Assembly (NCBI RefSeq): GCF_000004825.1
Contig: NW_008805076.1
Location: 930,001 to 994,000 of the forward strand
Reading direction: 5' to 3'
Source of the DNA: Heterostelium album PN500
Taxonomy: Eukaryota; Evosea; Eumycetozoa; Acytosteliales; Acytosteliaceae
DNA length: 64,000 nt
Part shown: piece by piece, positions 10,632-39,240 of the stretch
Layout of the letters: every line of letters begins with the position of its first letter
Numbering within the stretch: position 1 is the stretch's first letter
Translations under genes and position numbers: made by a program
Notes under the pieces: model-generated
Seen by the model: the letters and a program-made list of their open reading frames with translations, nothing else
Databases searched by the model: none
Told to the model about the DNA's origin: nothing

Positions 10632-13600
10632 TTATTTAGTGAGTTGTAAATATTTTATAGAGTTTGCAGTCCAAGTGATTCTTCCATCGATGTTGGTAGC
10701 AATGAATTCAGGAACACCAGATGGTGCTTGAATGTAGTAGGTTGTAAGTGGGAACTTTTGACACCAATACGATAGAAATGTACACGAACTAGCTACAGTA
10801 GAAGAATACACACAAAGACTAGGCATAGCTGGAGTAAAGTAAATACCAAAATCAGCATAATATCTTCCACATAGTTTCTGTGGTATGTTGGTGGTTGGAC
10901 TTGTCCATAGAACTTCACCTGTTTGAGAGTCTTTTGCTGCAATAATTCCAGTTTGGTCATCCCATTTGACACCGAAGTATCCATTTGCAAAATTCTTTAG
11001 AGGATTATTTTCGATTTGTTGGTAGTTTGACCATACTCCAGGTTTTGACAAGTATCCATCAATAATCTTTGTATCCTTGATGAAAGAGAATCCCCAATCA
11101 TCAGAACGAGTGGAACCCATCCAATTCATTTGGAATGCGGTTGCACTTGCAACATTTAGTTTGCCTGCTAAGTAACGAACGTTGGCACCAACCACAACAA
11201 TACCAGTGGATTCAAGTTGAGCATAGAATGGTCTTGTCGGTGCAACAGCTGGTAAATCTGATCTCCAGAGTACTATTGGTTGTGGTGTAACTGCATTATA
11301 TGGATTCGAGTCATATACAGCAAGTTGACCGTTACTCTCCAACCTGATATATGATTTTCCATTTGTCAAAACACCTCCTTCATTGATAATTCTATCTTCA
11401 GTCTCTGGATAATACTCTTGATTGTTTGCAACAATGAAACTTCCTGGGATCATCTTCAGGTTTGATCTTTCTTGTAGTGATGTGAATCTACCGTACACCA
11501 TTCTACCTTTGGAATTGAGGACATAGAAACCAATTTGGGTTGTTGTAAAGGCAGGTGCCAATCCAAAGTATCTTCCATCAAGCTGATGCGAATATGTACA
11601 CCATGAAACTTGTCCACTAAGTGTTTGTGCACAAAGATTTCCATCAGTACCAAAAACCAACTTGCAATTAGTTGTTGGAACATTAGGCATGTTGGTATAA
11701 TCTGATGTGTATATTGGATTACCACTTATCTGGACGTTGTCATATATCTTGAGTTGACATTGGTTTTTGTCCATTATCAAATAGTGGACACCATTGGTGA
11801 GAACACTTGGAAGGTACTCCGACTGCCAAGAATAGAGTACATTATTTGATCCTGTATTGTCAAGGACAATTGGTGCATAAACCAATGGATTGACAAAGTT
11901 TTCTTAAACTCAGTACCTGCAAGATTGTTGATATAAGAAGAATGATATTTGAACCAAACAATTTGTCCATTGGCATTTTGGAGAACAACACCATATGGAA
12001 TTAATTTGAGGTATCTAGCTTTGGAGTGGTGACTAGAGAGACACCATCTGGGACATGATTTATCAGAGATAACATTGTTAATGCAGAGATTACCATCGGG
12101 TTGAATGAAAAGTCGGTCCTCTCCATTGCAACTGCTTGAAAGGTAAAGAGATGATGACACAGAGAAAAGAGTGGTTCCCATCGATGAAATTGTCAAACCA
12201 CTTGAAGTCAATGATATTTGGGAAGTAATAGATGATCCAGATTGAATTTGGAGATTTTCATTGATTTTCAAAGAATTTTTAGTTGAAGACTGTGAATCGA
12301 GTGTTGGATATTGTCCTTCATCTCCATATGGTGATGTGTATTGAATGGAGTATGTTTTTGATAGTTGAGCATCGTTGTACTTGATAGTAAGTGTTTTGGT
12401 ACCAATATCAGATTTGAAGTAACATTGGGTTTGAGAACATTTCAAATTTTCACCTATTTGTAAATTGAATATTAGTAAATCGATTTAAAGATAATCAATA
12501 TATCTCGATTACTTACTTCCGATGTAGTATTTAATAAGTGAGGGATTTGGATATTGATTAAGAATATTATGGTATCCACCTGCAAAACTAATTCTATCAA
12601 ACATTGCTGTTTATAAATATAAAGATTATTAGAATATAAAATATTTTTGGGATTTTTGATTTATAGGTACTTACTTTGATAAGAAAGATCAAATTTAGTA
12701 AGTTGTATATTCACAGAGGAATATCCTGGATTAAAAATAAGATTGGTATTGAGAACACATTTCTCTGGGACAACCAATGATTGAACAATTTTGGACCATC
12801 CAATATGAGTGAGATCTCCCTGAGTGTAATATCCCACAGGTAATGTGAGTGATGAACCCAATTTGTTTGGTTTTTCATAAAAGTTAACTGTTGGGAATAT
12901 TCCAGAGTACATTGGGAGAGTCTTTGTTGTTGGTGATAGAACATCAAAATTGTTGATGATTGGCCATGTATTTTGATTCGGTGTTTGGATATTGACGACA
13001 CCAGTGATTCCAACCGGTAATTTAAATAAAATTTGACCATTCCTATTGTATTGTTTGAATAAGTAATCCTTTTGAAGGTAGGTAAATTTAATCTCTGCAA
13101 AAGTTAATGAATCATAGTATACAGCAGTATTATAATTTGGTGGGACCAAGTTATCTAATTTTAGATTCAATGAGACAATAGATGCTATTAAATAATTTTT
13201 GGTTAGTATAGATATTCTATCAATATCCTAAATGGACATGTTATTACTTACAATATGAGATAGATAGTTTGGTTCCAGTTAGAGTAGCTGCACAATCATT
13301 ACCATTCGTAGTCTTTATAGAAAAAATAAATTAGTATTTTCAAATTTAATAAAATTTTGTTGAATTAAATAGTTACAATTGAGGAAACCTGGAATTTACA
13401 AGTACTGGGTGGTGATTGACACATTTCATATGATAAAAGGTCATACTCACCATATGGTAATACCATTGTTGAAGATTGAAAAGTTGTTAATGTTGCGAAA
13501 CAATTGTATCCTGTGTCTTCAATAACACTAATATCTCTTTGGATGATTTGATCTTTGAGAATATCAAAGAAATGTGATGAAACCACAACGAAATATTTGG

Positions 13601-16600
13601 TTGGACTGTTGATAGTTGATGTAATTTCATAAGTTGCAGGTGCATCAAGTGATGCAAATGAATAGTATCCATTGGAATCACAAGATGCAACATATTTGGC
13701 AACAGAGTTAACAGACAAGGTAACTTTGCAGTTTGTGAATACTTGTTCACTAGAATCTCTAACATTATTAAAATTCTTGTCCAAATAAACATAACCATGT
13801 ACAAACGTAACTTTTGCCATAATTGTGTTTGATTTTTGATTTCCAATGTCAACATAAGCATAAATTTGGTTGGTACCAAGTGCAGGCATTTCATTGCAAT
13901 TGATTGTACTTTCATCGGTAAAAACTGGACTTAAACATGGCTTCCAATCAATTTGATTATTACTAAAGTAGATATTGGATGTTGCTGGTGCAACTCCTTT
14001 TGGAACAAAGTTTTTACCAAAGATTGTAAATGTATTTCCAGAGTTTACATAGTTTCCAATGGTTGGTACTTCATAAGAAATATATTTCAATGGTGAAACA
14101 ATATTGATTGAGTTGATTGTTGCACTAACTGAATAATCTGCACCAATTCCAGGTGGAACCAAACATTCAATAAAGAATTGATAACGGTGACATCCAATAA
14201 GCTTGACACCATTACTCAATTTGATATTGTCAAGTTCACTTGATGATATTCCAAATGAATCACCATCAAAAATTACATACCATCCTTTCGTTGGAACAAT
14301 CATCGGTGATGTTGTTGGGATGAAGTAACCTCTTGATAAACTGAATGTTGAGGTGGCAATCGAATTTCCAACTTTTACTTTTAATGGAATTTGTTTTGTT
14401 GGAATCAACATATCATCTGGAATAGTGATTCTTAATGTTTCGGAACTGAATAATTCAAATGGATATTCTTTGTCAAAGAGGAATAGTTTGGTGTTTTCAA
14501 TTGTTCCAAATGATTTTCCATTGATCAAGATAGAATCTCCTGGGAATGTTAACAATGGGTCGCTTGGAATAACCGAGAGGATAACCGGTGATTCATATGA
14601 TACTCTTTGATTATTATCCATTGATTGAACAAATGGACAATTTCTAAGTTGAATTCCAATTGGGATATTCTGACCAGTGTATGAAGGTGTTATACAGGTG
14701 ATTGAAGACTCTTGAATTTTAATGATGAAACACTCTTGGTGACCAATAAATGCTTGAATATCAGAGAATGATGAACCAAAGAACATTCCTTTAATTTCAA
14801 CAATATCACCACCTGATACTGAAAGAAGTTTGTTTGTTGTTCCTACATCAACTTCATTGATGATTGGACATTTGTTGGTGACATAGAATGAGTGATCATT
14901 GATTGAATTATCAACTTTAACAATATTATTGATATCGTTTAGTTTTGGTAATTCACAAAGAATGTTTGTACTGTTGAGAAGATGTTTCGAAATACATCGA
15001 TATCCATTGGAAATTGTAACTTGGGTGGATGAATCGAAATGAGTTCCACTGATCGTAATAATACTATTTGATGTTGGTATGATGTTGTTGATTATTGGAA
15101 TTCTACAGATATCGATTGATTCAATATTGCTGAGTTCTGTTTGTTTGACAAGTTTGATATCACATAGTTTCGAATTGATTGTGGCAATTAAAATACCATC
15201 AAATGTTGTCTTATCCAAAAAGATCGATTGGAAAGTTGATGGATATGCTGAATAATAATATTCGAGCTCGCCAAAAGAATATTTGATTGATTTTGTAGAT
15301 AATTGTGTGTGTTTGATAATGTTGGTGAATTCAACAATCGACATTGGTCTGCAAATTTCATAATGTGTAATTGAGGTTGGTGAATATTGTGGACATATTT
15401 CATTTGTCAAAAAGAATCTAAATCTTTCTTGGAGGTATTTGACTTCGTTGGAACGTGATAATCCGAGGAGTGTCGAGATCATTCTGTTTTCAAGCCACAT
15501 ATCCAATGATTCTGTCAATTGTTCAGTTTCAAGAGTATCCAATTCAAATATTTCATTTGATTTGAAATGATTCGATTGTAAAAGTGAAACTAAAAGTGAT
15601 GAACTTGCATGTTTGATTTGAGATTGAAGTTTGAATGAACGTGAATTTGAAGATCCTCCATTATTATTGTTATTATTGTTGGTAGCGGGTCTGAATAAAT
15701 TCTCAATTGCTGGATCTGCTGGAACAATTCTAATTTTGAACTTATCATAAACATCGACTGCTGATGTAAGTTGGAATGTTGTGAGATCTGAGAAAAGTTG
15801 AGCATATGTCAAAGGATTGGTGCTTTGAGACATCAATTTCCAGAACAAATAGGTAACTTTGGTAAATTCATTATCATTTACATCACTAATTGAAAAGATT
15901 TGGTTAGAATTTGGATTAAATTGAAAGTTCAATTAAATTCATCATTAACTTACGGTAGTGTGTTGATTGTATTCTTGGATTTAATTGGAATTGTAAAAGT
16001 AATGCCTAAAAGATCTGCTGTTGGAAGTGGAGGAGTAGCAATGTTGGTTGGAGTTATCATTCTCATATGAATGAATTTCGATGCAACCAATAATACAGCA
16101 TTTCCCAATTGATCATTGTTGTCTGAAATCGTTGGGTATCTAGTAACACTCATTAATCTTTGAGTCAATAGATAGTAAACCAATACTAAATCATCTGGAA
16201 TATTCGAAGTTTGTGAATAAATATATGGATATCTATATTGAGATGCTGTGCTGAGTGTTGGATCAATGATGATATTGTATCTTGATGTATCGCCCATTGC
16301 GGTTTGGAACTTTTTGGTGAAAGCAATTGTTCTAAATTCAATATTGGTTGTTTCAGTCAAATCATATATTCTTGTGTTTGCTTGGGGATTGGAACGTCTT
16401 GCATCACTATTTCCGTTTAATTGAGTTGGTTGATTGTCAACAAAGACTGCGTTGGCTCCAGTATAGGTGATAGTTGAGGTTACAGCATTTTGATCAAGAC
16501 ATTGTCTGACTTCATTTGATATCTGAGCTGTTCGATCGTTGGTACATGTATGAAGTGTATTGATTGAAGTGATGGTTGCTCCAGTAACATCTAATGCTTT

Positions 16601-19600
16601 GTATTCAACTGTTAAATGTGTTGGTTCACTATAAATCTTCAATGACCTGGATTGGAGTGGTGTTATTGGTGTCCATAGGTAACTTGATACATATGGTTTA
16701 AGTTGGGAGACTTCCTCTTCATTTGGGCTCTGAGCATCTGTTGTATATGGTGATGTTGTTCTTACAATTCTGATTTGTCTCGTGATATCGTGAGTTGGGG
16801 TGGCCGCGGTGATTGTGAGTGTTTGTAAAGGAATTTCAGGGATAAAGTGATGTCCGTTTCCTTTCTTGACTAAAAGTTGAACTTGACCAACAAAGTTTGG
16901 AACATTGATCCTAATTATTTGATCAACTAAATGTGAAATAACTCTACTACGAAGTTTATAGTTTTCACTCTCATCTGTACCTGCAATTTTGACTGAATAT
17001 GATCTAATAAAACTATGCATCTCTCGTGAAAGCTTTTCGTCTTCAAAACATGTGCAACCTCCACCTCTATGTGGCTACATCATTAAATTATTAATGTTAG
17101 TGAACTTAATATCAGTTTAATTAAAAGAATCAGTCATACCTGGAATGCATGTCGATTTGATTCTCCAAAACAAATTGTTGGATTTGGAACATCATATGGG
17201 AACATGTCGATCATAAATTTCGAGTGATCTTGTTTATATCCAGAATATGATTGGTATTCCCAATCATTTGCTGGTGTGACAGGAGTTCCAAGTGCATCTC
17301 TTCTTACCAAGAGTTCAGAGGTTAATTCTATTTAAAGTGTTAATGATTGCATCGTAAAAGTGATTTATAATTTTTGGTCAACTTACGAAGAAAACCAACT
17401 TGAGCAAGGGTTGCAACTTGGTACAAAGGTATCTGAGCACCTCCCACTAAAATCGGAATGGATATTTATTGTTAGCTCTTTTGCATTGTATTGACTTGGA
17501 AATGTAGTACTTACTGTTATAAGTGGCGACAAAGAATTTTCTTTTATAGTAAACTGAAGCAATAACTTCATGAATATCAACACCGTCAAATTGTGATGCT
17601 CTCGGTTTTTGGATTAGCTCCCAAGGTAATAATGGATTGATGAATTTATAATTATGTCTACCTCTTGTTGACAAAATATTTTTTTCCAAAGCTGGAATTT
17701 CAATATTAGTTTTAGCGAATGATTTGATGACTTTGGAAACTAATGGCTTTTGAAGACCTTTGATTCTATGTTCAATCATCCAATAGCAATGATCCTGTAA
17801 ATTTTGATATCTTTGAATTGGAAAATCATCATTTAATTTTTCAATTTCAATATCAGTCAAAGTATTCGCTTGTAACCTTTGCATGAAATTAGGAATTCTC
17901 TGAGTTTCGATTTCTGCCAATCTTTGATCATAGATTGCTTGTATTCTATTGGTACATTGCTAAAGTTGAAGAATTGATTAATTAATATAAATAAAATAAA
18001 TATACATTCAAATGATTTGCTTACAGTTATATAGAATTGAGATCTAATTTTAAATGTAGGTACATCAGTGAGTCTATAGAGATTAACACAAGGTATTCCA
18101 CGACACATGACTGTGTCCGCTGGTATTCTTTGACCATTTTGGTGGTTACTCATATATACCTTGTTTTTCACCATTGTATCAATAACATCAGAGAGATCTT
18201 CAAAGTTGTAACAAAAGAAATTCTGTCCTGCATCTGCTTTACCAAGCCAACCAAGAAGATGTGCACCTGTTCGAGTGAAATGTTCATAGAAGTCTCTATT
18301 TTTTGCTGGGAAATGAGGATTTGTATGTGTGACATGAATTCCTTTGGCAACACCATCCTCGATATCATAAATAACAAATCCTTTGGAATGAGCATAAGAA
18401 AGTGAACTCTCTGTGGCTCCTCTTCCACCTTCTTTTTCTCTTGGACCTGTTTGGTCGTTCCAACTGGATGAGTTCAAAAGATTTCTCATTCATTAATAAT
18501 CTTCAATCATTTATAGCTTGTTTTGATAATGAATATACATACACGTAATAGTAGGAGTTGGTTGTACTCAATTGTTTAAAGGTGGCTGCAAGTGGTGAAA
18601 GTTTTTGGTTTAGGTCGATATTATAACTTGCAGCTGGATTTTTTACATAATCTCCTTCTGGTGTGAGATGATCTCTCATAATCATACTATCCATTGATTC
18701 ATCGGTGTATAAATAACTGTTGGTTGTATGTTGGTTAAATTTTTGTTTGTTTCCTAATTTATAAGTGAACCACCATGAAACTGGTTTATTATTATATTGA
18801 TTAATTGGTCCATCTGCTTGGTCCTAAGCATGAAATACCTTTTAAAAAATTAAAAAACAAAAAAAAAAAGAAATAAAAATGGTTAATATATCATGTTCAT
18901 TATGATTCAGTATTTGTTGCTTACCATAGTTATTGAAATAAATTCTCTCCAATGAATAAGCGGATAGAGTTGGATCGAATACTTGAATCAAATATTTTCC
19001 ACTTGCTTGACCTGCTGGTTTGGCACATGATTTTTGGAACTGATTATTACCAAGTGCAGTCTCGGGATCACAAGTGAGAGTAATCGTTACACCAGAAAGT
19101 TTAACAAGTCTGATTTGAACAGCTGTTGAGTCACCTTTGGTATAGGAAATCGTCAATCGATCATCATTATATTTTGAACCAAATAATGGTGTTGCATTGA
19201 TGATTCTCGGAACTCTAAATTGAAGAATTTGATTGGTGATTGTTCTGCCTCCAACGGTGTATCGAAGTGCTCTTGTGTCTAAATCAGTGGTCTTTGGTTC
19301 TGGGAGTGAACATATCATCGATTGTTTGAGTGGAGCTGTTGGATTGATGAGAAGACATCCACTTTCTTTGATATTCTCAAGATCTGCACTCACTGTGAAT
19401 GAATGTTCTGAAGGGAAAGTAATTTCATTGTTGGTAAAAGTGACACCAATCACTTCGATTTCAATGAATTCTCTTGGTGGATTGGGTGGGAATGTGTTTG
19501 TTGTTGGATCTAATCCAAGAGTACTTGATGTGATTGAGTAGACTGGTTTTACTCTCTTGGCTTTGTCGATTTCATACTCATCAGTTCCAACTGTGAGAGT

Positions 19601-22415
19601 AAATGTATCGTAGTTGAATTGTCCTTCGACCACAATAGTGCAAATCGAATCGACATGACCAACATATATACCATCTACAACATAGTTGGTTATAAGCTCT
19701 TCATGAGTAAGAGGATCTACCTCAAACATTGTAACTGCATTTGCAGTATGGCTACTATAAACACCAACGAACGACACCGTGAATAGATCTTGTGAATAAT
19801 TAACAGTTTGTTTATCGATGAGCATTCTCATTCTCTGGGTTGCAGTGTCATAGTTTAATACTCTTCCAGTTACATATAAATCGTTGGCATTTCCTCTTCT
19901 GATAGTTAGAACATGGTCAAAAGGTATTGGGGCATCACCAATTGAAAGAGATTCAATACGATTAAGTTCTACTCCATTTAGCATTCTAAAGTATCCTCCA
20001 TAAGTACTTTGGATAACATTAGCCAAGAGACTTTGAACATCAAATACAAGTCCTGAATTGAAATAAATTAGTTTTGTGAAACAATAATAAATAAATGATT
20101 ATATGATAGTTACCAGTGTATTTGAATTTGAGAGTGGAATCAATTGTCTTGATAAAACCTGGTTTGGCATTGTTTGGATCAAATACAATTGAAATCGGGA
20201 ATTCAGTTGGTAGATTGGCCAATGATAAATCTTGGATACCACTACATTTGATTGGAGTTGGTGCAGAAGTTGTTTCTGGAGCACAATTCAAGTTGTAGGT
20301 TCCAATTTTAATCAAATAATCTTGTTTCTCTGGGAAATCTGTGAGATCAAAGATAATTGATTTACTGGCTGCGTCATCCAAGAAGTACAATGAAAGTGTA
20401 TTATCATCTTTGGCCTTGATTGTCGGTGCTATTATAGATCATTAATAATCAATTTATCAATAATATTTATAACTGATTAATGATAGTTACCAAGTAATTT
20501 CATTTCAATATCGGGTTTAACTTGATATGAATGTTCAACGACAGTTCCATCATTCGAGGTTAGACTCTTCTCAACAAAGAACTTGATTGTTTGATCACCA
20601 ACCAATGCAGTACTAACAATTTCAATTGAAAGAGTATTGTCTACAATCTGGAAGTCATTGGTATTCAAAGCGATATCATTCAATGTAATCTTGTTTATGA
20701 TTTCCAAGTTTTTACCTTTGAGTGTACTTATTGAATGTCCGGTATTGATAATCTTAATCGATTGAGTTGGTGTCAAATCAAATTCAGGATCTGTATGAAA
20801 TTAAAAGATTAAATTAGATATTGACTCTTTAAGAAAGATAATCTAAACTTTACATACAATTAAATATATAGGTATATCCAGTCGGGTAGTCTCTTCCATA
20901 CATCTTTGTATTGATTTTATACTCCCAAACAGGTGGATTTGTAGCATCTGGGAAATACGAGAGTGAAAGACATTCGTATTGGTCCAATGTCGATGGTGGT
21001 ACAGCTGCTTTATATTGACATTTCAGTTTTATATGACTTGTACCAATGAAAACAGATCCAGATGGGTCAAGATGCTCACCATCAATCACAAACTTTACAT
21101 CTCCTGTCATAGGACCCGAAATATCAACTCCCATACTTGGGAAACTCGGAACTAATAAATAAAAAAAGAAGGAGAAACACAGAGTTGTAAATAAAGCGAT
21201 CATTTAAAAGATTCTTTAATCTATAAAACAATTTGATAATTACCAAAAAAGTTATACTTTTGTGAACCAGTAATTGTTTTACCAAGTACATTGACGTAAG
21301 CATTGACAATACCTGAAGGGAAGTTGGTTGGGACATCCAAAGAACATATGATTTGATTATCATCTTTCGAAAGTTCTTTAACAGTACACTTTACAGTTTT
21401 AGATTGATCTTCATTAATAAAGTTCACTTCAACCTGATCGGGTTTAAGACTTGAAATGAGTGAATCAGTCTTGATAATAATGGCATCATATGATAGATGT
21501 GAGTTTAAAGAGAGTTCCGTTGTTGGGATGATCTTTGCTAAAAAATTATAATTAAAATTAAAATTATAAAAAATAATTTAATCAAATTTGATGAACTTAC
21601 GAAGTGCTGTGATTTTGAATAGAAATTTTGGGATGTGATTCGAATCAGCATATTCAAAATTAAAAAAATAATCACCGAATGGAACTACTTGAGTGGTGGT
21701 ACATTCGATTTCATCTTTTGAAATGACTGCCGTGATTAAACATTCATACTTGACAACTGGTACACCTTGGGGAATAGGGACTAGAGTTATCTTTGGAGCA
21801 TAGTTTGGAAAATGGAGAGCATAACCTTTAAACTTGAAGGTTTTTGTTCCTTCTAGAATCACAGTATCATCATAAATGATAGAAGGAACTTTATTGAGTA
21901 AAAAATTTGAAATATTAGAAAATCATTTTCAACACATTTTTGAATAATAAGATATATACATACTTGTGAATTTCATATAAAAAGGATTGTGGTGGGTTCA
22001 TTGTTGATTGATCCAAGATGACAAGAGAGTAACTATTGGTAATTGATGATTTACCTCGTTTGAGTGGACGGGTAGACTTAGGACGATCATCACTACCATC
22101 ACTACCAACCATACCATCACTACCATCACTACCATCATCATCATCATCATCAATGTCAAATACTACTCTCAGATTTGGAATTTTGTAAACCACTACATTA
22201 GTACCAACTCTTTCAACAAAAGTACATGGTTTAACATTAGTTCCATCTTCAGCAGTAACCTTGAATTTATCCTTGTCAAAAGCATATCCATCTGGAAGTT
22301 TGATCGATACCCTAAAACCATCTTGATAGATTTCATTATCAAATTCGAATTTTACCTGATCAGTTGTCCAAACAACAATAAATGATAAAAATAATAATAT
22401 TATTATTTCTTTCAT
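10632..22415 (-). CDS. Gene A: giant secreted TIG / DNase II / SdrD_B / lectin-type protein (about 3,540 aa)
   Basis: Eighteen exons: 22415-21964, 21888-21601, 21537-21244, 21151-20858, 20790-20491, 20428-20114, 20052-18925, 18838-18543, 18484-18025, 17959-17515, 17446-17387, 17327-17140, 17074-15954, 15885-13377, 13312-13252, 13184-12675, 12606-12517, 12453-10632. The start is set by a signal peptide (MKEIIILLFLSFIVVW). Domains in order: TIG/E-set-like repeats (about residues 150-1020), a DNase II domain (about 1025-1520), a region of unknown fold, about five TIG domains plus one SdrD_B-like domain (DKNFNNVRDSSE) to about 2740, a beta/gamma-crystallin-like segment (VNFYEKPNKLGSS), then B-lectin-like repeats (FGTDGNLCAQ). 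DNase II signatures are present: HSKG (18382-18390), GQNFFC, DHSKF (17218-17226), HRGGG. The frame needs single-base slips at about 21979-21983, 18818 and 11899-11902, so it is either lightly damaged or mis-sequenced. A two-gene model split near 18,900 is possible but gives no signal peptide for the second gene. Confidence 0.75.
17074..18838 (-). other. DNase II domain of gene A with both HxK motifs
   Basis: Alignment by eye to animal DNase II: ISCLGP and SWWFTYKL at the N-terminus, SSWNDQ at the LYNDQPP position, AHSKGF at the first catalytic His-x-Lys, IHVTHTNPHFP at the LVHSVPNFP position, AGQNFFC at GQTLLC, QDHSKF at the second HxK (DHSKW), CFGESNR at CVGDMNR, and PHRGGGCTC at the RGGG motif. 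Every landmark is present in order across six exons. Predicted to be an active acid endonuclease domain if expressed. Confidence 0.8.
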
Positions 22416-23330
22416 CTTTTATTTTATAATATATAGAATTATTTGAATTATTTTTATATATTATTATATAATGAAGATTTGTAAATGATTAAAAAACTAT
22501 TGTATTTTGTAAAGTATGAATTAAAGAAAAACGAGTGATTGGTTAACTATTGAAAGTAATCATTTTAAATGACCAAGCTGATTTAGGCGATTAACCAGTG
22601 AAAAATAAGACTTTAATAGTATTGAATTGAATCCCATTCTCTAAAAGTAATAGCAAAGGTTTATTCGGTTAAATGAAAAGAATGAGGGATCAATCAAAAA
22701 CCAACTTTGAACCTTGTTGTTTTCACAAAGTTTGCACATTTTCAATATTTTGAAAAATATGAATCATTTTTCTAATTTTGGCACGCTAAAAGTTTATAGC
22801 CTGGGATTAAATCGTTCTAAGTTACTCGTGTACGGAGTGTTTTCTTCGACCTTTCCGTACCTATTTTTAAAAGAATTCGACAGACTGACTACGTGGTAGA
22901 TTTTGCAAAAGATAGAACTTAAAAAAAAGTAAAAAAATCAACTTTGAGATTAGACGCAAAATAAAAAATTTTGGACCCTCTAAAAACATGTACATTTTTA
23001 CTCGTTGTGAGTTACAATTCTCGAATCAAAATTTTGTTTAAATCCTTTTTTAGGAAAAAGATTATCAACAATCTTTTTCGAATCATTTTTGCACTTTTAT
23101 TCCCCAAAAGGTAATAAACATTAGGCACCATCAGAAGTAAAATGATTCCGTTGAGAGACAAACCGTGATCGCTAAATATCTAGCTTTTGTATAATAGTTT
23201 TTCAAAAAAAAATAAATAAATTTTTTTATTAGTTTGAAACGAGTGATTGATTGGACGAGTTTCATCTGGATATCTAATCACATGTAAAATTTTATTAAAA
23301 TCAATAATAATATTATTATTTAAAAAAAAT
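22416..23330. promoter_or_regulatory. Divergent intergenic region between genes A and B
   Basis: The 915 bp between the two divergent start codons is the only promoter space for both giant genes, so co-regulation is possible. The middle (about 22,540-23,170) is less A/T-rich than the edges. I could not identify specific transcription-factor sites with confidence. Confidence 0.5.
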
Positions 23331-24430
23331 ATGAAGAATAAATATTTATATATTTATATATTAATTATATTTATTTGTAATAATATTTCTTTTATTACAG
23401 CTATTCCAAGTTGTTTGTCACCTGACAACAATAATGTGCAATGGTGGTATATCAAAAAACTACCATTAACCAATGCATATTTGTACATGGACGAGCATAA
23501 TGTAATTTTTCTTAGTGATATCACTCTGGCTGAAAGTGCACTTGGAAGAACGCTTGAGAGTATCAAAACCAATGAAGTTTTGATGTTCAATGACAAGCCT
23601 TGGCAGTTTGGTGACAAAAATGAAAATCAAGAGACACCTCTAAATGGCCAGTGGCAACCTGATCAGTATGGTACATCCAAAGGATTTGTTGCACTTACCA
23701 GTTCTGGAAATGGAATTCACGTAAAACACACTATGCCTGGTTTTCCTGCCATTTTGCCCACTAATAATGAGGTTGCAATGCCTTCAAGCTATCCAGGAAA
23801 GTGGTTCCCTCAAGACTACCATTTGGCTGATGAACAATCGATTAATTTGAATATCGGTCATTCATTTTTATGTCATACTCTTATCGGCCTTAGCAATTTA
23901 GAGATGACTGCATTTTTTAATACTTTAGTGCCATTGGTTCCAAAGATTTATTTTAACACATTCAGTGAAAGAAATCTAAGATTCTTGAATAATATATTTG
24001 AAGGATCAATCGTTGATTCCTCAGCCAAACAGTACATCAGCCCAACTATTGAAATCCACAGTGGTTTACAATCAAGTGCTTGGCAATCTTTCTTTGGATA
24101 CACTACCGTTCCTGTAAGTAAATAGATGATATTGAATTACACTGTAACAAAGTTAATATAAATATAAATACTAATGATTCTATTGTATTAATTAGAGAGA
24201 TGCCGTTGCAACTGCTAGTTTTAGTAGTTTGGTCGAGAATAGATTGCCAATTGATTTTTCAAATCAATACAACATACCTTTGGAGAGTAGACATTGGATA
24301 TCGGATGTCGAGGCACCAGGATTTGCATTTGACAAACTCAGAATATGTCTTGGTGATTACCATCCAACTTTGTCTTCATCACCTGCCTCGTTTGTGTGTG
24401 TTGTTACCTCGAGTGCTGCCAATACTTTCC
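23331..24430 (+). other. DNase II-like domain of gene B, catalytic histidines replaced
   Basis: Family landmarks are present: SCLSPDNNNVQWWYIKKLP, IHVKHTMPGFP, IGHSFLC, ICLGDY. However, the first His-x-Lys is Thr-Ser-Lys (23673-23681) and the second is Phe-Asp-Lys (24328-24336), and the RGGG motif is absent. Known DNase II activity depends on both histidines, so this is predicted to be a nuclease-dead domain kept for binding or structure. Confidence 0.75.
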
Positions 24431-27400
24431 TAATCAATACTGCCTACAAACTTAGATCAAGTATTTGCTCGTCACTTGATTGTGAGACTAAACTGCAGAG
24501 TGATTTCAATGGAAAAGGTCAAGTTAGATTCCAAGTCAACACTGTCAGTACCAATATCGGTTCACTCCTTTCTCGTACTCCATTCGATTCAAGTCTTCCT
24601 GATACTGAATTGACTGTTGTACCTGCTTCCGATCCGTCATGTCAGAGTGATTGTGGTATCTTTGAATATCAAACCAATGAATTTGCTTCTGTTGATATTG
24701 TCAAGTATTACACTCCTGAGATTAGATTGTATCTGAAGGATAATAAGAGAGGTATTAGTATTCAATACTATTCTGAAGACTCTGAATACATTGTATACTC
24801 TACCATTCTAAAGTATCAAGACAATCTATTTTCACCAGAGACTGTCAGTACTTACGATACAAATGTATTAATGTTTTATCGTACTTTACAAATGTTGGTA
24901 GATTTGTATCCAATTGTCAACACTGATAGCACTTTCACACAACCACAAATTACAGTTAAAATTAATAATCAACACACAGCAATAATCAACGATAACAACA
25001 ACTACGGAATACAAATCGATAACTTGTGTATTGATGATTTGTTCCTTTCATATTCTTATCACTACATAACATCATTAAATAATAACTATAAATTAGATTC
25101 TCTAAATATTAATGATCGAATTCAACAACAAGAATCAGATGAATATGCAGAACAATTGGCAACAAGCAAAGCATTGATTTATTCTTTCGCGCTCAAATTC
25201 AAACAGGTAAGAATGAAAAACCCCGCTCTTTTTATATTTTTTGATTGATCGTTAAATCAAAATATCTTACTAACTATTTTTTTATTTATTTTATTTATTT
25301 TTTATTTAATTTATTTTGATTATTTTTCTTATTTTTTTATTTATTTTTATTTATTTATTTTTATTTTTATTTTATTTTATTTTTCAAAATTAACAGGATA
25401 TTTTCCCATATCTGAGATCAGATATAAAACAAATCATTCATTGTGATTCACCTGTTTCACTTGAAATCTATCAAAAGAATGGAGTTGTTCAACCAGTTGC
25501 TCGTTCTTCAGGACTCATTGCATCATTCCTTTGGGATATCATCGATAACCAAGCTGATCAAGATGAGATATTCTATCAAGATAGCTTTACCAGTGGATTA
25601 GATTCCTTATCATTCCCACTGATCAAAGAGATCATCAAAGAGAATGTTCCATCCGATATATTCACAGTCATTGATGTTCTAAAGTCAAAGATTCAGAGTT
25701 CTGTCATCGACACAACAATGATTTTTGACAACTTAGATCGTGTCATGAATTTAAATTATATTTACAAATGTAATTTCTGTTTGGATGTAAGTAATATTTA
25801 ATTTATTATTTTATGAATATCATTCTAACAATCAAACTTTTTAATTTTCAGAGTCCAACAAATCCACCAACAGACCCAATTTATGAGATATTAGGAAGAT
25901 ATCAAGTTTGTGAATCGAATTTCCAAACACTTTCACTCAGTAAACTTTATGAAACTGTTGGAAAATGGGTTCAATTTGATGAACATCAAATATCATCCAA
26001 TGTTATTTGGGATTCAATTTACGAATCTCCATTGATCAGATATTTACGTAGTTCACAATATTTGAAGAATCAGATTGGTATTCGAGATAGATATTACTGT
26101 AATAATCCAATGCACCAAGGTGATCCATTCTCTTCGATCACTCCACTTGGTCTTGATATTATCACGGAATTGATTGGTGTGTTAACTCAAACAGAAACAG
26201 TTATCACCTATGGAGACCACCTTTCAACCTATTTTATTCCATTGGAGAATGAACCAGAGGAAGGTTTTGGAATTGTCATGTTTGATGGAAAGATCTGTAG
26301 CTTTACTCATTCAACAAAAGTTGAGTTTGAAAGTGGAGAACTTCTTCAAAGTTGTCCAGTTGATCCATTCATTCTCTCCGTTGGACCATTGACAGGTGAC
26401 ACCAAAGATGAAACAACACTCATCATCAAAGGTCGAAATCTTCAATATCTCCTAGTAAAGTTTGGTGACATTTACCTCGAAGACTGTGACTATACCAATG
26501 AAGATGATCTCCACCAAAAGCAATGTACAATTCCATCTGGACTTGGAACCAAATCGATTTCAATCACTACACCAAAAGAACCTTCACTTAGACTTCCAAA
26601 CACATTCCAATTCCAATACAATGCACCAACAATCAGTTCTCCACGACCATCTGAACAATTCAACACAGTAGGTTCAGAGATTACACTTTATGGAAGCAAT
26701 CTTTTCTCCATGACATCAACAGTAAACGACATTAAGTTAAAGATTGGTGGAGTCTCAATCGCATTGATCTCTGGTGGCATCCAAGATTCAAAAGAATATA
26801 TTACATTTAAAACCAGAGGATCTGGATGGAACAAAAATATTTCAATTGAAGTTGGTGGTCAAATTTATGAACAACTTGACTTTATTGATCATAAAGCACC
26901 AAACATCGATTCAATCTCCAAAGTAATGTGGAAAACCGATGGAGAAGAAGATATAATTATCACTGGTTCTCAATTTGGTGATGAATCTCTGACAATTGAT
27001 GAATCACCAATCTCGAGTTTGACCTGCAATAGTCTCATTCGTGTCAGTGACAACAAGATTACTTGTAAATCTGTCATTGGTGGTGGAAAGAATCTTAAAT
27101 TCAGTATTCATGTCGATTCACAACAATCCAACTTTTTACCTTTCGATTATATTGCACCAACTATTCTTCAAGTTGTTCAAGAACCATTCGTCAACACATC
27201 ATATGGAGGTAATTTCTGGGTTGTTGGTCTCAATCTTGCAACAATGACCGAGTTTGTTCCATCAGTTAATATGTCCAATGATCATTATCAACTTTATGAG
27301 TGTATTGTAGATGAAGAAAGTGTTTGTTTTCCAAACAAGTTATATTCAAATGAAGATGGTCAAGTAATTGAAGTACCAACACAACAAACACCAGATAAAG

Positions 27401-30400
27401 ATTTCGATCCATACATTGAAATAGATAAGGAATTCAGATCAATGGAATTTGATTGTATTAAGTGTAGACTACCAGCAGGTGTTGGAAATGACAACATTGT
27501 CATTCTTGAAGTTCTTCAACAACTATCTGGAAATTCAACAGACTCACTCGTTTTCCCAAGACCATTAATCTCCAAAGTAATCAACAATACATCTGGAACT
27601 GATGGTTCAGTAACACTCTCAATTTTTGGAACGAATTTCTCACCAAAAGAACAAAAATTCGTTTATGATGAAGAATCTGAGGATTATTATGAAGTTCCAC
27701 TTATCGAATATGAACGTGGATTTGACAGAAGTAATATTTCCATTGGTCACTACCATTTTAAGAATATCACATGGGTGAATTCATCATTGGTACACACAGA
27801 GATCTATGCTGGTGTTGGTGCCAATCTTACAATTTCTCTCTTCTTGGGAAATCAATCAATGTTAAACATTGAACCAAATCAAATTCTATTTAATTTCTCA
27901 TATGAAAGTAAGTTTTAAAAGTTTATATAATATTATTCTTATAAATTTGATAGATATTAACTTTATACACTCTCTTTCTATATTTTATTTTATATTTTAG
28001 GACCAAATATCTCGGCGATTGTTGGAAATTTGAATACAAGTGCCAACAATGAAATTACAATCAATGGTTTCAATTTCATTCCCAAAAATCAAACGTTTTT
28101 GAAACAATCAGATTTCGACACCAGTTATTTAACAATCGGAGAAAACAATTGCACAACACCAACTTGGACAAACTCAACTTCATTTACATGCACTCTCCAC
28201 CCAGGAATTGGTGCCAACTTGACATTAACCGTTTTCATTGGAAATCAATCGAATATCGATGGAGTCAAGAATTTCTCTTATTCTGAACCTCACATTAAGA
28301 GTGTAGATTCAAGTGATACCAAAGGAGGATCAGTCATTACAATTCATGGTGTCAACTTTGTTCCGAAAGATGTTGATCCAAAAGACTCTAAAGTTTTAAT
28401 CGATGACGTTGAATGTAAAAATATCAATTGGATTGATCAAGACAGAATCGAATGCACTCCACCACCTGGAATTGGTAAAAATATATCGTTGGAAGTTGGA
28501 ATCGCCAATCAAAATACAACTGAAAACATATTCAAATACAATGAACCAAGCATTGAAGAGATTCCAAATGTTTTGACGCATGGTGAATTGATCACAATCA
28601 AAGGAACCAATTTCGTTCCGAAAGATGTTGATCCAAAAGGTTCCAATCTCACCATTAATGACGAACTTTGTGATGATATCACATTCATCGATGAAACACA
28701 AATATCATGCAAATTCCTCAAAGGTATCGGAAAAGACCAACCATTATCGATATCGATCGATTCACAAAGTGTCAAAGCTAAATTCAATTACAAAATACCA
28801 GAGATTACAGAAATACCAAACAGTGATACATCTGGATCAACGATCACAATCAAAGGAGATAACTTTGTTCCAAAAGATGTTCAAGATGGTGGACCAACCT
28901 CGAGTTATGTCGAAGTCAATGGAAAGAAATGCACAGATTACGATTGGATCGATCACAATCAACTTTCATGTAAAATACCAATTGGTATTGGAAAGAATGT
29001 TCCATTTAAACTTTACATTGGAAAACAAACACATTCAAACAATCAACATATCGATTATAATCGTAAGTTTAAAAAATACAAATATTTAAACAATTATTGA
29101 TATTAATACTAATATTAATATCAAACTATAATAATAGCACCTTCACTGCCAAGTGATTCAGATTATTCGGGACCAACCAATGGTGATTTGACTTTGATGA
29201 TCACAGGATCAAACTTTGTACCTTCTGATTTGGCATCATCAACACCAACCAATGATCAAAACAATTATGTAAAGATTGGTGGTAAATCATGTCAATCACT
29301 GACTTGGAAAGATTCGAACTCATTACAATGTAAGATTCCAATTGGTACTGGTGTCAAGAAATCAATTGAAATCAAAGTTGGAGGTCAATTAAATCAACAA
29401 AATACCTATTTCTCTTATGACAGTATGTTAAAATTATTTTACAATCAACAATAATAATTATAATTATAGTATATTTTTATTAATATGATAACTTGTTTCT
29501 ATTTCTAACTTTAGAACCAACAATACGTGAAATAACACCAGAGAAAGGAAGAATGGCAAGAAATACAATCGTCACTATCAAAGGAACCAATTTTGGAAAT
29601 GTCCAAGATAAAGTCAGCATCGATGGTAAAGATTGTAATGTTTTCACATGGAATCATGAACAGATTGTATGTGTTGCTCCTCAATCCAGTTCTGAAGGTG
29701 AGAAAACAGTTTCAGTAACAGTTGACTCACAACAATCGAATCAAAACATCAAATACACCTATTATGACAAACCAAAGATTGAGAGAATCGAACCAAAAGA
29801 AGGATCAATCGATGGAGATGAACAATTGACAATCTATGGATCGAATTTGATTGAAGATGGAAGTACATTGAAGGTATACTTTAAGAAACAAGAATGTCCA
29901 GTTGTTTCTTCAACAAAAGATCAAATCGTATTCACCAACAAGAAAGGAGCTGGTCAAAACATTGAAATTTATATCAAATTGGTAAATTCAAAACTTTCTG
30001 ATCAAATTTCAAATACAAACACTGAATTCTCTTTCACTGGTAAGTTTTTATTGAATAATAATCAATTAATTATCATAGAATTATATCTAACTTTTCTTGC
30101 TTTTTTAGGTCCATCTATCAGCAAAATTAATCCAGAATCTGGAGATAAGAACACGAAACAACCAATTGAAATTACTGGTACAAATCTTGGACTTGTTGGA
30201 GATGAACCATCTGTCATGATTGGCTCGAAAGAATGTTCCAATGTCAAAGTGATCTCATCATCAAAGGTGACATGCATTGTTCCAACTTCTTCAACTGCAA
30301 AAGTAGAACCAGTCAAGTTAACCTTTTATTCTAAAGAAGCCACCTCATCCTATGAGTACACTGAAGAAGAAAGCAGCAGTGAAAGTGAAAGTAGCAGTAG

Positions 30401-33400
30401 TGACAGTGTATCTGATAGCACTGAAGAGCCTGAGCCTGAGCCTGAAGAAATTATCACCCAAATGTTCTATATTATTGGAGTTCCACCAATTGTTTGGCCA
30501 GTACCACCAGGTCCACCTCCAATCATCCCAGTTCCTGTTATGGTTGTAAATGTTCTAAAAGGATCGACTGCATTCGAAATCTTTAGAAAAACGATGATAT
30601 TGAAAACACCAGACAATTTTGAATTCCCATTCTCAGACTTTGACTCTATCAAGATCGATTGGGGAAAGATCACATCCTCTAGTCTCACCAAATCTAAATT
30701 TAAAATTAAAATTAGATTCAAGATTAGTTTCAAATTAAAGAGTGGAAAATCATGGTCATGCGAATCTGACAGCTCTGATGAAGATGATAATGATTCAGAT
30801 GGATGGACTCGACCAACAGTAGAAGGAGGTCCACCTCAAGGTAAATTCCCACAATGGTTATTGCCAGCTGGAAGCGATCCAAATCAAATTCCAACTGAAT
30901 TACCAAACCCTCCAGCACTCCTCCTCAAATCTAAAATCAAAGGTCGTCTCTTTGAAGACAAGAATCAAAACATGAAATTTGATGGTGATGATACTCCAAT
31001 CACCAATAATCAAACGTTTATGATTGGAATTGTCAATGATGATGGAGATTACACCAATGGTAAAGTCAACTCTGATGGAACATATGAAGTGGAGACTGAC
31101 AAACAACTTGGTCTTTACACTTTGGTTGTGACATCAATACCAATATTTAGCAATGCAAACTACTTCCTTCCACAAACCAGATTCCATATTCCATTCACTT
31201 TTGAAGGATATGAACAGAATATTCCTGTTTTCACCAAATCACCACTTGGATGTTTGGGAACTGTCGAAACCTATTCAAAGAAGATCACATTACAATATGG
31301 TGAATATAATTTGTTGGATTTCGGAGTCTACATGTTTGAAACTTCCACTCCTAAATTCCCAGATTATTGTCAAGTCAATCTCTTTGCAAATAAGATTGCC
31401 ATCAAATATAGTAAGTAGTTTAAAATAAAAGTAAATATAAATGATCATATACTAACGATGGTTCGATTAATTTTCAACAGAGACAACATCAGATTTAACA
31501 TTATTCTTGGATACCAATTTAGATGGAAGTCCAGATAGCTCAATATCTTCAGTTGATTACGATGTTTTATCGACTGTTGATGGAAAACAGTTAATTCGTA
31601 GCTATTCTTATAAGGATAAGAAATCATTTGATTTACCATCGAGTTCATACATTCGATTCAAAGAAAGTACAGAAATGACACCAATCATCAACAACTATTA
31701 TGTTAAAGTTGAAGATCCAAATAAGATTTCAACAATTTCAAGCAAACTTGGATTCATAAACATTGCACCATCAAAGACGATCTCATTCACTGGTTCCAAT
31801 TCACAAATACTTTCACTCACCTTTGGAAAGTTCACCAAACAATTCTTTACCAATATCGAATGGACTGACACCACATTATCATTCACACCAAAGACCAATC
31901 AAACTGTAATTTTCAGCAAAGATGATGAAGACACCAATGGTCGAATCGCCTCACCAAATGGAAATCAATATGTTCTCAACAAAATCACTTTTGGAAATGT
32001 TGAAATTGTCAATCAATGTATGTTTATTTTTTATTTTATATATTTTGTTAAAAAGTACTCATTTATTAACAAAATTTATTCTATTTATTATTTAGATCTA
32101 TTCTCAAATGTAATTCCAAGTACTGGTGATAAGATTGTGATATCGAATGATTACCCATTCAAAACAGCATCCTATTTTATTGATTCCGTTCAAATTAAAT
32201 GTGATGTTCTTGATTCACTCCATTATAAATGTGATATCCCAGCGTCAACTGGAGGAGTAAATACCAAACAAATTACATCCAAATGGAATGATATGAATCT
32301 TTATAACATTCATACTCTCACCTATTCTCAATCACAAACCACCACAACATCATCAACAACATCCAGCACTGGAACTTCATCAACTACTGGTGGAGTAACC
32401 ACCACTGGTGAGATAACTACAAGCTCATCAACTACTGGTGGAATAACCACCACTGGTGAGATAACAACAACTTCAACAACATCAACAACTGGTGGTGGTG
32501 GTTCATTTTCAAGCTATATCTATGGTTATATTCACGATGACAGAAATTATAACAATCAATATGATCAAGGTGAACCATTCTTGACAAACTTCAAAATTCA
32601 AGTTATTGGAAATAATAACTTTGATTATAGAACCACAAGTAATGAAAGTGGAATCTTTGAATTCAGAGTTGTCGAACCTGGAACTTACAAGATCACAATT
32701 GATTCAGATATCGATGAAATACCATACTTTATTCCAATACAAACTGTTTATGTCAGAGTTTCCAATCAACTCACAATTGTTTCAAATATTACTGTTTTCT
32801 CGAAATGTAAGTAATTTCTTCCACTTCAACCACATTGTACCATATTAATAATATTATTTATTAAATTAGCAAATTATGAATGTTTCGGAACAATATCCAA
32901 TGCAGAACGAGAAACACTTTCAATTCAATATGGTTCATTTGATTTATCAAACTTTAACTATAATTTTAATTCATATTATCAAACCTATTCAGTAAGTGAC
33001 CATTTATAATTTATAAATTCCTCAAAAAAAAAAAACTAATTGTATTTTTAAACTATTAGTTCCCACCAATTTGTAATGTAATCTTGGAAGACTCAATTAT
33101 TACAGTTAAATATAGTATGTATATTCACAATAATAACTCGAATTCAATTATTTATTTATTTACTAATATTAATAATAACTTTTAGAATCAATGTTAAATT
33201 TATCAGTTTTCTATGATGAGAATTTCAATGGATTAAATGATGATAATGCAACATACCCAGTGAATATATCAGTTTTAGTTCAATCGAATTTGAAAGGTAA
33301 ACAATTGGAAAGATCGTTTATCATTGATAAAGCTCCATACTTTATTGTGACGGATATTCCAGGTGACTCTTTTATCAATATGACACAAAGAACAGATTCA

Positions 33401-36379
33401 TGGAATACAACAATCGGATTCAACACCAAAAACTATTCAATTCCAGATGCAACATTATTCTCAACAATCGATGACAGTTTAATATTGTTTACATCGAATC
33501 CAAACAACACAATATCATTATTCAATGACAGAACTATCTCAAACAACACTCTTATCATTCCATTTGGCAAATACAATTCAACATTCTTTGATAATCTTTC
33601 ATGGAATACTTCAAATTTGACATTGACCACAATGCCAGATCAAATTGTTGTAATAACATTGAACAATGGTTCATCGATAGTCATTGAAAACAATCAAACA
33701 GCCAACTTTATTAATTTCAATATTACAACAATTGAATTGATCTATTTAGATCTTTTCAAAGAACTCCCATTGATCCCATTGGTTGGTGGTTCTATTAAGT
33801 TATTCAATGTTTATTGGAATTATTCGATTCAACCAGAGTTATCAATTGAAGGATTCAAGATGAACTGTTTAATTTCATCAATTGACTCATCTTTTGTTGA
33901 TTGTTCAGTTCCACCATATTTGATTGGTGATCTCAAGAAAGCAATCAAAGTTACTTGGAATGGAATGGATTTGTACCAAAATGGATTTATTACCTATGAA
34001 ACACCTTTGACAACAACGTCAACAACATCAACCAGCACCACTGGAATTCCAACAACAACTGGTGGTTCTGACACAACAACGACTGGTGGTTCTGGTTCAA
34101 CTACGACTACATCGACAACTGGTGATTCAACAACAGCCGGAAGTACAACAGCTGGAAGTACAACAGGAGGCACAACTCAAACAACTTTACTTGTTGGATA
34201 CCTATTTAATGACACCAATTTCGATGGAATCTTTGATTCTTCCGAAAAACCAATGAGAAATATCAAAGTTGAAATTGTTGGACCTGTCAATTCAAGTACA
34301 ACAACCTCATCGACAGGTCAGTTTAGTTTCATCAATTTGATTCCAGGATCATATGAAATCAAAGTCGATTTCAATGAATCATCAAAGTTCTACAATCCAA
34401 TTGGAAATTATACAATGCAGGTCACCAATCAATTTATGATCCAAAGAAACATTGCACTATTCTGGAAATGTATGTATTTTCTGCTATAATTAATCATTTG
34501 ATACAAAATATTAACACTTTTTTTAATTTTTAAACTCAAGCACCTCTTGGATGTGTCGGATCAGCAACAACATCAGATTGGACATATTTGGTTCAATATG
34601 GATCACACAACTTGACAATATTCAAGTTGAATACCACAAATATCAATTCAACAGCATTTGTTCTTCCAGACTATTGTGTTGGAACTGTTGTCAACAATGA
34701 AACAATTGAAATCAAATACAGTAAGTAATTACTATAAAAAAAAAATTTTTACATATAATAATAACATTAATATTAACTATTAATTTTAAAACTCATAGAA
34801 ACTTCAATCAATTTAACATTGTATTATGATATTAATATCAACGGAACACTCGATGAATCAGATCTCAAAGTCAATAACACTGTCAATTCAACAATCATGA
34901 TCACATCGATTGTCAATAATCAAACAATCATCAGAAACATGACATCATTGATGATTCCATCGACATTGTTGATTGATCTTCCATCGAATTCAACATTCAC
35001 AATCATTTCAGATCCACAATCCAAAACATCAGCAATTCTCAACAACCATCAAATCAGTTTATCAAACTTCACAACATTACACACAGTTAATCAATCATTT
35101 GCATTCTATAATGAATATCAAAACAACACATTGACACTTGGAAATAATGAAACAATCTCAACATTCACAATTCCATATGGTAAATACAATGTATCGTACT
35201 TGGCAACACTTGGATTCAATTCAAGTTCCATTAAATTCAGAACCAATGTCAATCAATCAGTATTACTAAACTATGAGACTGAAACATTAAACATCTCAAA
35301 TAGTACCATTCAAGTGTTTAACACATCAGGTCTTGATTCAATCGAACTTTATGATCCAAGTAAGTAAAATTAATAGATTTTAATATTGTTTATTCGCTAT
35401 ACTAATATTCATAACAATAATTTAAATAGATCTATTCAATATTTCATTCATTCCAAGTCATGGATCATCAATCAATCTAACCAACAGATATTGGAATTTG
35501 AATCAAGCAAATATTTCAATTGAAGGAGTCAATATCGATTGTCATAAACTCAATGATACTGACCAATTCGTATCATGTTCAATTCCAAGATATATTGTTG
35601 GTAACTGGACAAGATCAGTTTCGATTTCAATGAACAACCACACACTTTATCCAAACTACACAATCACCTATCAAAACAATTGTTCGAATTGTACTCTTGA
35701 ACAAAAGTTACTCTCCCAATGGACTGTTGATAATGTTAACTATTACCAATATGAAGCGAATATCACCAATTATGGAAGTCACGATCTTTCATTCATGGAG
35801 ATATCAATTGGTAATGATGAAAGCATTTCAAATATGTGGGGTGCCACCAAACTCCAACAATATCTCTACTCATTGAACATTGAAGGTGTATTTAAGAGCA
35901 ATACAAGTGACAATCTTGTTTACATCACCAACTCAAGTAAACCACTTGATCTTTTCATTGTTTATTGCACAGAGTTTATTTCAACACCAATACCAACAAC
36001 ACCAATAACACCAGAACAAAGTTCAAACAAAGTCAGAACATCATCTTTTAGAAGCATGTCCAACAACAACAATGACAACAACTGTAACTTTGAGATCACA
36101 CAAACAATCATGAGTAATTGGACAACAGGTGATCAACATTATACACTTTACTACATGGTAATGAAGAATATCGATAACACCACCACCAATAAGCACCAAC
36201 ATGTCGAAATCACAATCGACACAAACATTGAATCGATCTATGGAATCAAAGAACAAACAACAACAAACAACTATTCAATCGATATCGACACTGACAACAA
36301 ACAATTACAAAAAGAATTTGTCATCATTACAACCAACACTGACATTGATCCAATCATTTCAATCAATCAATGTTCTTAA
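23331..36379 (+). CDS. Gene B: giant secreted DNase II-like / TIG / SdrD_B / CBM49-like protein (3,937 aa)
   Basis: Sixteen exons: 23331-24113, 24196-25206, 25397-25786, 25852-27907, 28001-29062, 29138-29422, 29515-30039, 30109-31410, 31481-32017, 32096-32806, 32870-32991, 33060-33114, 33186-34469, 34541-34720, 34799-35359, 35430-36379. All junctions keep frame and no internal stop remains. The chosen start gives a signal peptide (LYIYILIIFICNNISFITA); an in-frame upstream ATG at 23247 would bury it. Order: DNase II-like domain (about 25-400), a region of unknown fold, about 13 TIG domains (about 900-2125), an acidic Ser/Glu stretch followed by Pro-rich and Lys-rich segments, then SdrD_B-like domains with Asp/Asn-rich loops (DDRNYNNQYDQGE, NDTNFDGIFDSSE), two Thr-rich mucin-like stretches, and two CBM49-like modules at the C-terminus. 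N-glycosylation sequons are very dense in the last 1,000 residues. There is no transmembrane segment, so secretion is expected. Confidence 0.85.
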
Positions 36380-39235: not shown

Positions 39236-39240
39236 CTATT
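39218..39240. repeat. TATC microsatellite
   Basis: Five uninterrupted TATC units that run into the stop codon of the GH38-like gene. Confidence 0.8.

Follow-up and report, generated by a model that had tools for sequence, protein, structure and literature searches.

Why would a nuclease of the DNase II family be built into proteins of several thousand residues? The question is raised by two adjacent, divergently oriented genes, here called A and B, in a 64,000-nucleotide stretch of the dictyostelid Heterostelium album PN500 (contig NW_008805076.1, positions 930,001 to 994,000; this whole stretch is the window, and positions are counted from its first letter). As gene models, each combines a DNase II-family domain with TIG domains, SdrD_B-like domains and a distinct C-terminal tail. 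The residues that characterize DNase II catalysis are kept in A and partly lost in B, and the two proteins differ sharply in their content of N-glycosylation sequons. From these features we propose, at about an even chance, that A works as an acid nuclease tethered to the matrix, and that B, whose DNase II fold is degenerate, serves as a scaffold bound to cellulose.

Gene models and domain architecture

Genes were modelled with a dynamic programme that scored codon usage and splice sites. The programme permits only GT..AG introns, so the GT..AG ends of all modelled introns are by construction. The start of B was moved by hand upstream, to the first ATG of its frame. The resulting models give A 19 exons and 3,489 residues and B 16 exons and 3,930 residues (Table 1). 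Introns are short and AT-rich (18 introns of 59-127 nucleotides and 65-91% AT in A; 15 introns of 63-190 nucleotides and 77-89% AT in B), compared with approximately 65% AT in the exons. The B model contains no stop across its 3,930 codons, and the exons of A are long and clean, with exon 14 extending over approximately 837 codons. Another first intron for A was dropped, as it produced the wrong reading frame, with 127 stops. One N-terminal hydrophobic, signal-peptide-like stretch is found in each protein, on which both are predicted to be secreted; no second 19-residue stretch with a mean hydropathy above 1.5 was found in either.

A first-pass annotation had described two divergent multi-exon genes at these coordinates, with 18 exons and 3,540 residues for A and 16 exons and 3,937 residues for B. 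The rebuilt models agree on the genes and on the exon count of B, replace the exon count of A and come close to both sizes. Domain content, order and size also hold, including the position of DNase II at the N-terminus of B and approximately 1,000 residues into A. The hidden Markov model search that the annotation had proposed as a check was run against Pfam with single exons or spliced pieces rather than with whole proteins. It places DNase_II (Pfam accession PF03265, cut-off 23 bits, profile of 326 positions) above cut-off in both genes.

Other predicted domains vary in strength. SdrD_B/Cna_B-type repeats, a trait of colossin- and SdrD-type proteins, give one Pfam match above the SdrD_B cut-off and two below. 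The match above lies in B, with a further one near 32527-32706 falling below (23.5 bits, cut-off 29.7); the SdrD_B-like domain of A is also below. The domain in A is related by BLAST to the SdrD-type regions of B (E 3e-13 to 1e-9), and a SdrD_B-like domain in B exon 8 is known from its BLAST match to A only (A residues 2543-2941 and B residues 2314-2725, E 2e-10). In the tail of A, the best solved-structure match of exon 16 is development-specific protein S, which we take to be a Myxococcus beta-gamma crystallin. The last exon has nine solved-structure matches, eight of which bear the name lectin or agglutinin; the remaining one, gastrodianin-4, is a relative. The annotation's crystallin/B-lectin-like tail therefore meets weak structure matches and no Pfam match, and its CBM49 modules in B are confirmed.

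The DNase II domains are continuous with these modules in the gene models. A exon 12 carries the second catalytic motif; exon 13 opens with the RGGG loop and then enters a middle region, whose remainder shares exon 14 with the four TIG domains and the SdrD_B-like domain. Only two short introns (65 and 68 nucleotides) lie between motif 2 and the TIG domains. Exon 2 of B holds the second DNase II lobe and continues, free of stops, through approximately 250 further residues of the middle region.

A could instead represent two genes misannotated as one, A1 (residues 1-1006) and A2 (DNase II onward), with their boundary at intron 18814-18924. Directly upstream of the DNase II exon this intron holds, out of frame, an SCLGP-like string that by eye resembles a DNase II start. 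We regard such a split as scarcely probable, since the DNase II start has no in-frame ATG before it (the first falls after a conserved VSWW segment) and a single 68-nucleotide intron separates the RGGG end of DNase II from the SdrD_B-like domain. The DNase II-TIG fusion would survive the split, because only that intron, or two introns counted from motif 2, would have to be crossed. The same out-of-frame reading also includes a phenylalanine-rich stretch, and may be left over from a stand-alone gene or be due to chance.

The first approximately 1,000 residues of A resemble Ig/TIG modules in size, and one weak match links them to the TIG domains of B (A residues 221-358 to B residues 1674-1797, BLAST E 0.003). 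Four consecutive A exons of 294-315 nucleotides (20114-21537, minus strand) all have phase-1 intron bounds and by size would each encode one Ig-like module; none of them matches Pfam at cut-off. Phase-1 introns account for 23 of 33 introns in A and B, a share not clearly higher than the 11 of 24 in rough models of neighbouring genes, and we claim no exon shuffling from it. Pfam also reports DUF7498 just at its cut-off (27 bits, with no single stretch passing) and a ComC domain below cut-off; we take both to be dictyostelid families. Along with base composition and the presence of CBM49 and TIG domains, these matches fit a dictyostelid origin.

Homology between the middle regions of A and B is suggestive at most. 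Comparison with shuffled sequences gives z -0.3 for the N-terminal part, z 2.2 for the C-terminal part (reached by 4 of 200 shuffles) and z 1.9 for the whole (9 of 200). No usable solved-structure match was found for the B N-terminus, B exon 2 or A exon 7. An AlphaFold model of B exon 2 alone (mean pLDDT 33.8, pTM 0.21) was not used.

Catalytic residues of the two DNase II domains

We collected 30 bacterial loci encoding proteins related to 5i3e, a bacterial DNase II of solved structure, found a reading frame with both HxK motifs in 28 of them, and added the sequence that we take to be human DNase II. The H and K of both motifs, the third histidine, the N-R of GDxNR and the R-G-G of RGGG are present in all 29 sequences, and the last glycine of RGGG in 27. 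Because two HxK patterns served to select the frames, agreement at the H and K of these motifs is by construction; at the other positions it is not.

A agrees with this reference set at every tested site. It has both HxK motifs, H1122-S-K1124 (AHSKG) and D1445-H1446-S-K1448 (DHSKF), as well as the third histidine (H1143), a GESNR sequence and the RGGG loop (residues 1477-1480). The solved structure itself aligned with motif 2 of A weakly (E 0.1).

B lacks two intact HxK motifs, the mark of catalytic members of the family. Motif 1 reads T115-S-K117 (GTSKG), with threonine in place of histidine, in both the profile alignment and a pairwise alignment with A (z 9.2, reached by none of 200 shuffles). 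Motif 2 reads H294-W-I296, with isoleucine in place of lysine, and ASFV stands where RGGG is expected. This placement follows two cysteines: H294 lies 18 residues before Cys312 and 35 before Cys329, the spacing that separates H1446 of A from Cys1464 and Cys1481.

Titles in the reference list of PMC11430429 call two HxK motifs requisite in human DNase II alpha and describe His115, His132 and His297 as crucial in the porcine enzyme. With one residue missing from each of its HxK pairs, B is therefore predicted to be a dead enzyme that retains membership of the DNase II fold. The ‘nuclease system’ of the first-pass annotation accordingly stands as a prediction for A only and is withdrawn for B, where half of each HxK pair and the RGGG loop are gone.

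We found no confirmed relatives of the A DNase II domain, B exon 1 or the TIG-bearing B exon 4 in viral contigs, in single-protein queries that detect close relatives only. A tblastn search of phages with one 89-residue A DNase II exon likewise gave no match.

Sequons and a second copy of B

A contains three N-X-S/T sequons versus 41.0 ± 5.5 expected (2,000 shuffles, none as low), and 48 instances of the reversed motif S/T-X-N (binomial p 2e-11). B contains 85, versus a shuffle mean of 65.2 (4 of 2,000 as high), and these are unevenly placed. Residues 1-905, which comprise DNase II and the middle region, have a single sequon, located in the signal peptide, versus approximately 10.7 expected from composition (Poisson p 3e-4); compared with the reversed motif, the ratio is 1 to 7 and p is 0.07 only. 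Residues 906-3930 have 84 sequons versus 40 reversed motifs (p 1e-4). Five neighbouring open reading frames (starting at 36861, 43303, 46224, 49205 and 50611) together have 20 sequons versus 23.1 expected. An alpha-mannosidase-like frame at 39236-42907 is also low (2 sequons versus 9.9 expected, with 7 reversed), so sequon depletion may be more widespread here among some secreted enzymes. As far as sequence composition indicates, A looks to have been shaped to avoid N-glycans, and the TIG-to-CBM49 part of B to carry them.

The window also contains an inverted second copy of the 3' part of B. An in-frame stop interrupts the copy where B has codon 2121, and its last exon contains a one-base insertion. 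The earlier description of a ‘pair’ holds for the two genes and is to be supplemented by this incomplete, broken copy; a second A may lie past the window edge, because the copy runs off it. B and the copy differ at 79 of 8,790 exon positions (0.9%) versus 58 of 919 intron positions (6.3%; Fisher p 1.3e-24), an approximately sevenfold lower divergence in exons. Four of the five exon indels are multiples of three, and the codons that differ include 40 synonymous and 36 non-synonymous ones (a rough ratio of non-synonymous to synonymous divergence, dN/dS, of 0.25). The duplication of part of B is recent, and B is under coding constraint from 26662 on. The contrast between exon and intron divergence backs the B gene model from the same position onward.

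An unstable locus with some members dying would provide another explanation for several of these features. The broken copy, the loss of DNase II residues in B and two poor splice junctions in A would then all reflect relaxed constraint. We consider general decay highly unlikely: a stop-free model of the length of B, exons that diverge so much less than introns and the long, clean exons of A all argue against it.

The features on which these analyses draw are collected in Table 1, together with neighbouring genes. The region between the A and B start codons gave no Rfam match at the gathering threshold.

Table 1. Positions of the A and B gene models, their predicted domains, the second copy of B and neighbouring features in the window.
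Feature	Position	Strand	Details
Gene A	10632..22415	-	Model: signal-peptide-like start, approximately 1,000 residues unknown to Pfam, DNase II, middle region, four TIG, SdrD_B-like, crystallin-like and bulb-lectin-like tail
A DNase II (residues ~1007-1500)	16998..18813	-	Pfam 109.7 bits, E 2.1e-31, two stretches
A four TIG domains	13815..15080	-	Pfam PF01833, four stretches in exon 14, E 9.4e-22; outer limits approximate
A SdrD_B-like domain	13593..13793	-	Pfam PF17210 26.3 bits, E 9.2e-6, below cut-off 29.7
A beta-gamma-crystallin-like segment (weak)	12757..12903	-	Exon 16; protein S 1prr E 0.0036; no Pfam match
A bulb-type lectin-like segment (weak)	11565..11843	-	Last exon; lectin 1kj1, best E 0.01; no Pfam match
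Intergenic region between A and B start codons	22416..23330	.	915 bp, 74% AT
Gene B	23331..36379	+	Model: signal-peptide-like start, degenerate DNase II, middle region, 12 TIG stretches, SdrD_B-like with Thr/Ser/Gly-rich linkers, two CBM49
B DNase II (residues ~25-345)	23403..24447	+	Pfam 79.2 bits, E 4.1e-22, profile positions 1-204 of 326 only
B TIG array	26383..30332	+	Pfam, 4+4+1+2+1 stretches in exons 4-8; outer limits approximate
B SdrD_B-like domain	34199..34375	+	Pfam 38.7 bits (cut-off 29.7)
B two CBM49 (cellulose-binding) modules	35693..36379	+	Pfam PF09478 46.9 bits (cut-off 23.4), two stretches
Second copy of B, 3' part	54237..64000	-	Inverted, 98.4% identical to 26662-36414 (9.75 kb); runs off the window
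GH63 N-terminal domain	1532-2125		Pfam
Exonuclease RNase_T	5492-6109		Pfam
tRNA-Leu (CAA) gene	8937-9017	+	
Class II (D/K/N) tRNA synthetase	36861-38357		Pfam
1,223-codon open reading frame	39236-42907	-	Lysosomal alpha-mannosidase-type domain, weak, 22.2 bits, below cut-off
GH38 N-terminal domain open reading frame	43303-44244		Pfam; adjoins the alpha-mannosidase-like frame 39236-42907
Tubulin-tyrosine-ligase family	45244-47045		Pfam; one of two open reading frames below cut-off
WD40 protein	49205-49837		Pfam

Possible roles and relation to known proteins

We propose that A and B are giant secreted modular proteins of extracellular-matrix or adhesin type. In A, a DNase II domain inserted between other modules would cut DNA without metal ions, under acid conditions, and the tail would hold the nuclease on glycans or matrix. 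In B, the CBM49 modules would sit on cellulose, and the TIG array and SdrD-type spacers would form a scaffold or adhesin. The former nuclease fold of B would still bind, to DNA or to a partner, without cutting. Precedents exist for the cellulose attachment: cellulose is bound by D. discoideum proteins with a single CBM49, and amoebae have proteins in which CBM49 is fused to a hydrolase (PMC6541295, PMC12821622).

Several observations weigh against the proposal of a tethered nuclease and a cellulose-bound scaffold. First, the DNase II domain of A comprises approximately 490 residues versus 326 profile positions, with an unmatched middle part, so its kept catalytic residues are no proof of activity. 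Second, B keeps the third histidine (H133), and its second lobe aligns significantly with neither A (Smith-Waterman z -0.5) nor the bacterial profile; the placement of its motif 2 is by cysteine spacing alone, because alignment and profile fail there. Third, the first A intron (GTATAT..AAG) and the last (starting GTACTG, 64.6% AT) have poor splice sites, and a frame break is possible at both. Fourth, the comparison with the second copy covers B from approximately residue 1,000 on, leaving out the B DNase II domain and all of A. Finally, no Pfam family was found for the A tail (exons including 16 and the last), where the bulb-lectin and crystallin assignments are weak, and by eye its lectin-like repeats lack what we take to be the classical mannose-binding residues.

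The first-pass annotation had suggested defence, feeding or self-recognition, and the present evidence favours none of these over the others. The same domains could serve feeding. A would then be an enzyme sent to phagolysosomes. There, attachment to bacterial surfaces or biofilm would be the task of its lectin-like and TIG modules, and digestion of prey DNA that of DNase II, with B as a non-catalytic capture protein. DNase II is an acid enzyme of lysosomal type (PMC11430429, PMC9208542), bacteria are the food of dictyostelids (PMC5758549), and the window contains GH38 alpha-mannosidase-like open reading frames, an activity also enriched in dictyostelid expansions (PMC8535579). Gene neighbourhood is no evidence of function, however; CBM49 indicates a cellulose matrix, and a modular protein of 3,500 residues would in our judgement be unusual cargo for a digestive lysosome. 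A digestive role is possible but unlikely.

A role in recognition must also be weighed, in which the divergent genes encode partner adhesins similar to TgrB1/TgrC1 and the DNase II folds are structural. A and B both have TIG arrays, as Tgr proteins have TIG repeats. The tgrB1/tgrC1 genes diverge from one common promoter, in a locus rich in local duplications (PMC12324515), and A and B likewise diverge near a recent inverted duplicate. Tgr proteins, however, are anchored in the membrane (PMC12324515), whereas the search for a second hydrophobic segment showed no such anchor in either A or B. Retention of every tested catalytic residue, as seen in A, would not be required of a purely structural fold, and the rough dN/dS between B and its copy points to purifying rather than diversifying selection. 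We therefore hold this role to be quite unlikely.

Our proposal of a tethered nuclease and a cellulose-bound scaffold could be extended to a co-regulated pair of enzyme and pseudoenzyme. In such a pair, a glycan-tethered DNase, active and hardly N-glycosylated, would act on extracellular DNA, from the amoeba's own DNA traps or from bacteria, that a dead, heavily glycosylated, cellulose-anchored partner holds for it. Against bacteria, social amoebae deploy DNA nets (PMC4773522), and the coats they make contain cellulose and many CBM49 proteins (PMC12821622); the excerpts of these two papers name no tethered nuclease or DNA-holding matrix protein of the amoebae. The co-expression that the extension supposes, and the ligand, site and timing of action of the two proteins, are inferred, and we judge the pair as a whole very unlikely. 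If true, it would amount to an extracellular DNA-handling system made from adhesin parts.

Comparison with known proteins shows both shared and differing features. DNase II family members (PF03265; human DNase II, 5i3e) resemble A in their two-lobed HxK motifs, third histidine and RGGG loop, and the Pfam family is matched in both A and B. They are small, however, with 298-440 codons stop to stop in the 28 bacterial frames, whereas the domains of A and B lie inside proteins of approximately 3,500-3,900 residues, and catalytic residues are missing from B. Trichinella spiralis has an expanded, partly secreted DNase II-like family in which the HKD motif is said to occur in 1 of 125 predicted genes (PMC4148230), a parallel to B. 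Unlike in A and B, fusion to TIG, SdrD_B or CBM49 goes unmentioned in the excerpt of that paper.

Among dictyostelid proteins, the IPT/TIG-EGF-C-type lectin family, Tgr proteins and colossins are similarly large and modular, with TIG or Cna_B-type domains (PMC4334915; PMC3188802). In four species the lectin family (OG5_153020) numbers 9, 43, 35 and 50 members; it is expanded outside D. discoideum (PMC4334915 Table 2). The word DNase has no occurrence in the main text of PMC4334915 or PMC3188802. Like B, the Acanthamoeba CBM49-metalloprotease and the D. discoideum CBM49-cysteine proteinase and GH9 proteins join a hydrolase to CBM49 (PMC6541295). B differs from them in its nuclease fold, predicted to be dead, and in the long TIG/SdrD stretch in between.

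DNase II-annotated expansions in dictyostelids are already known at the gene ontology level, with ‘deoxyribonuclease II activity’ among the functions enriched in lineage-specific expansions (PMC8535579). A DNase II-TIG or DNase II-CBM49 fusion is not described among the literature matches listed (titles and starts of abstracts, mostly open-access; eukaryotic proteomes lay outside the search), and a query joining DNase II, Dictyostelium and TIG domain returned no paper. The first-pass statement that no such protein had been described is uncontradicted within this scope, and is to be read beside the reported DNase II expansion.

At the least, the locus records a DNase II domain inside giant modular proteins, whatever the activities of A and B. 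Should A prove active and B bind DNA, the two would provide a concrete, testable protein pair for extracellular DNA handling, and B would be an example of an enzyme fold that has become an adhesin module.

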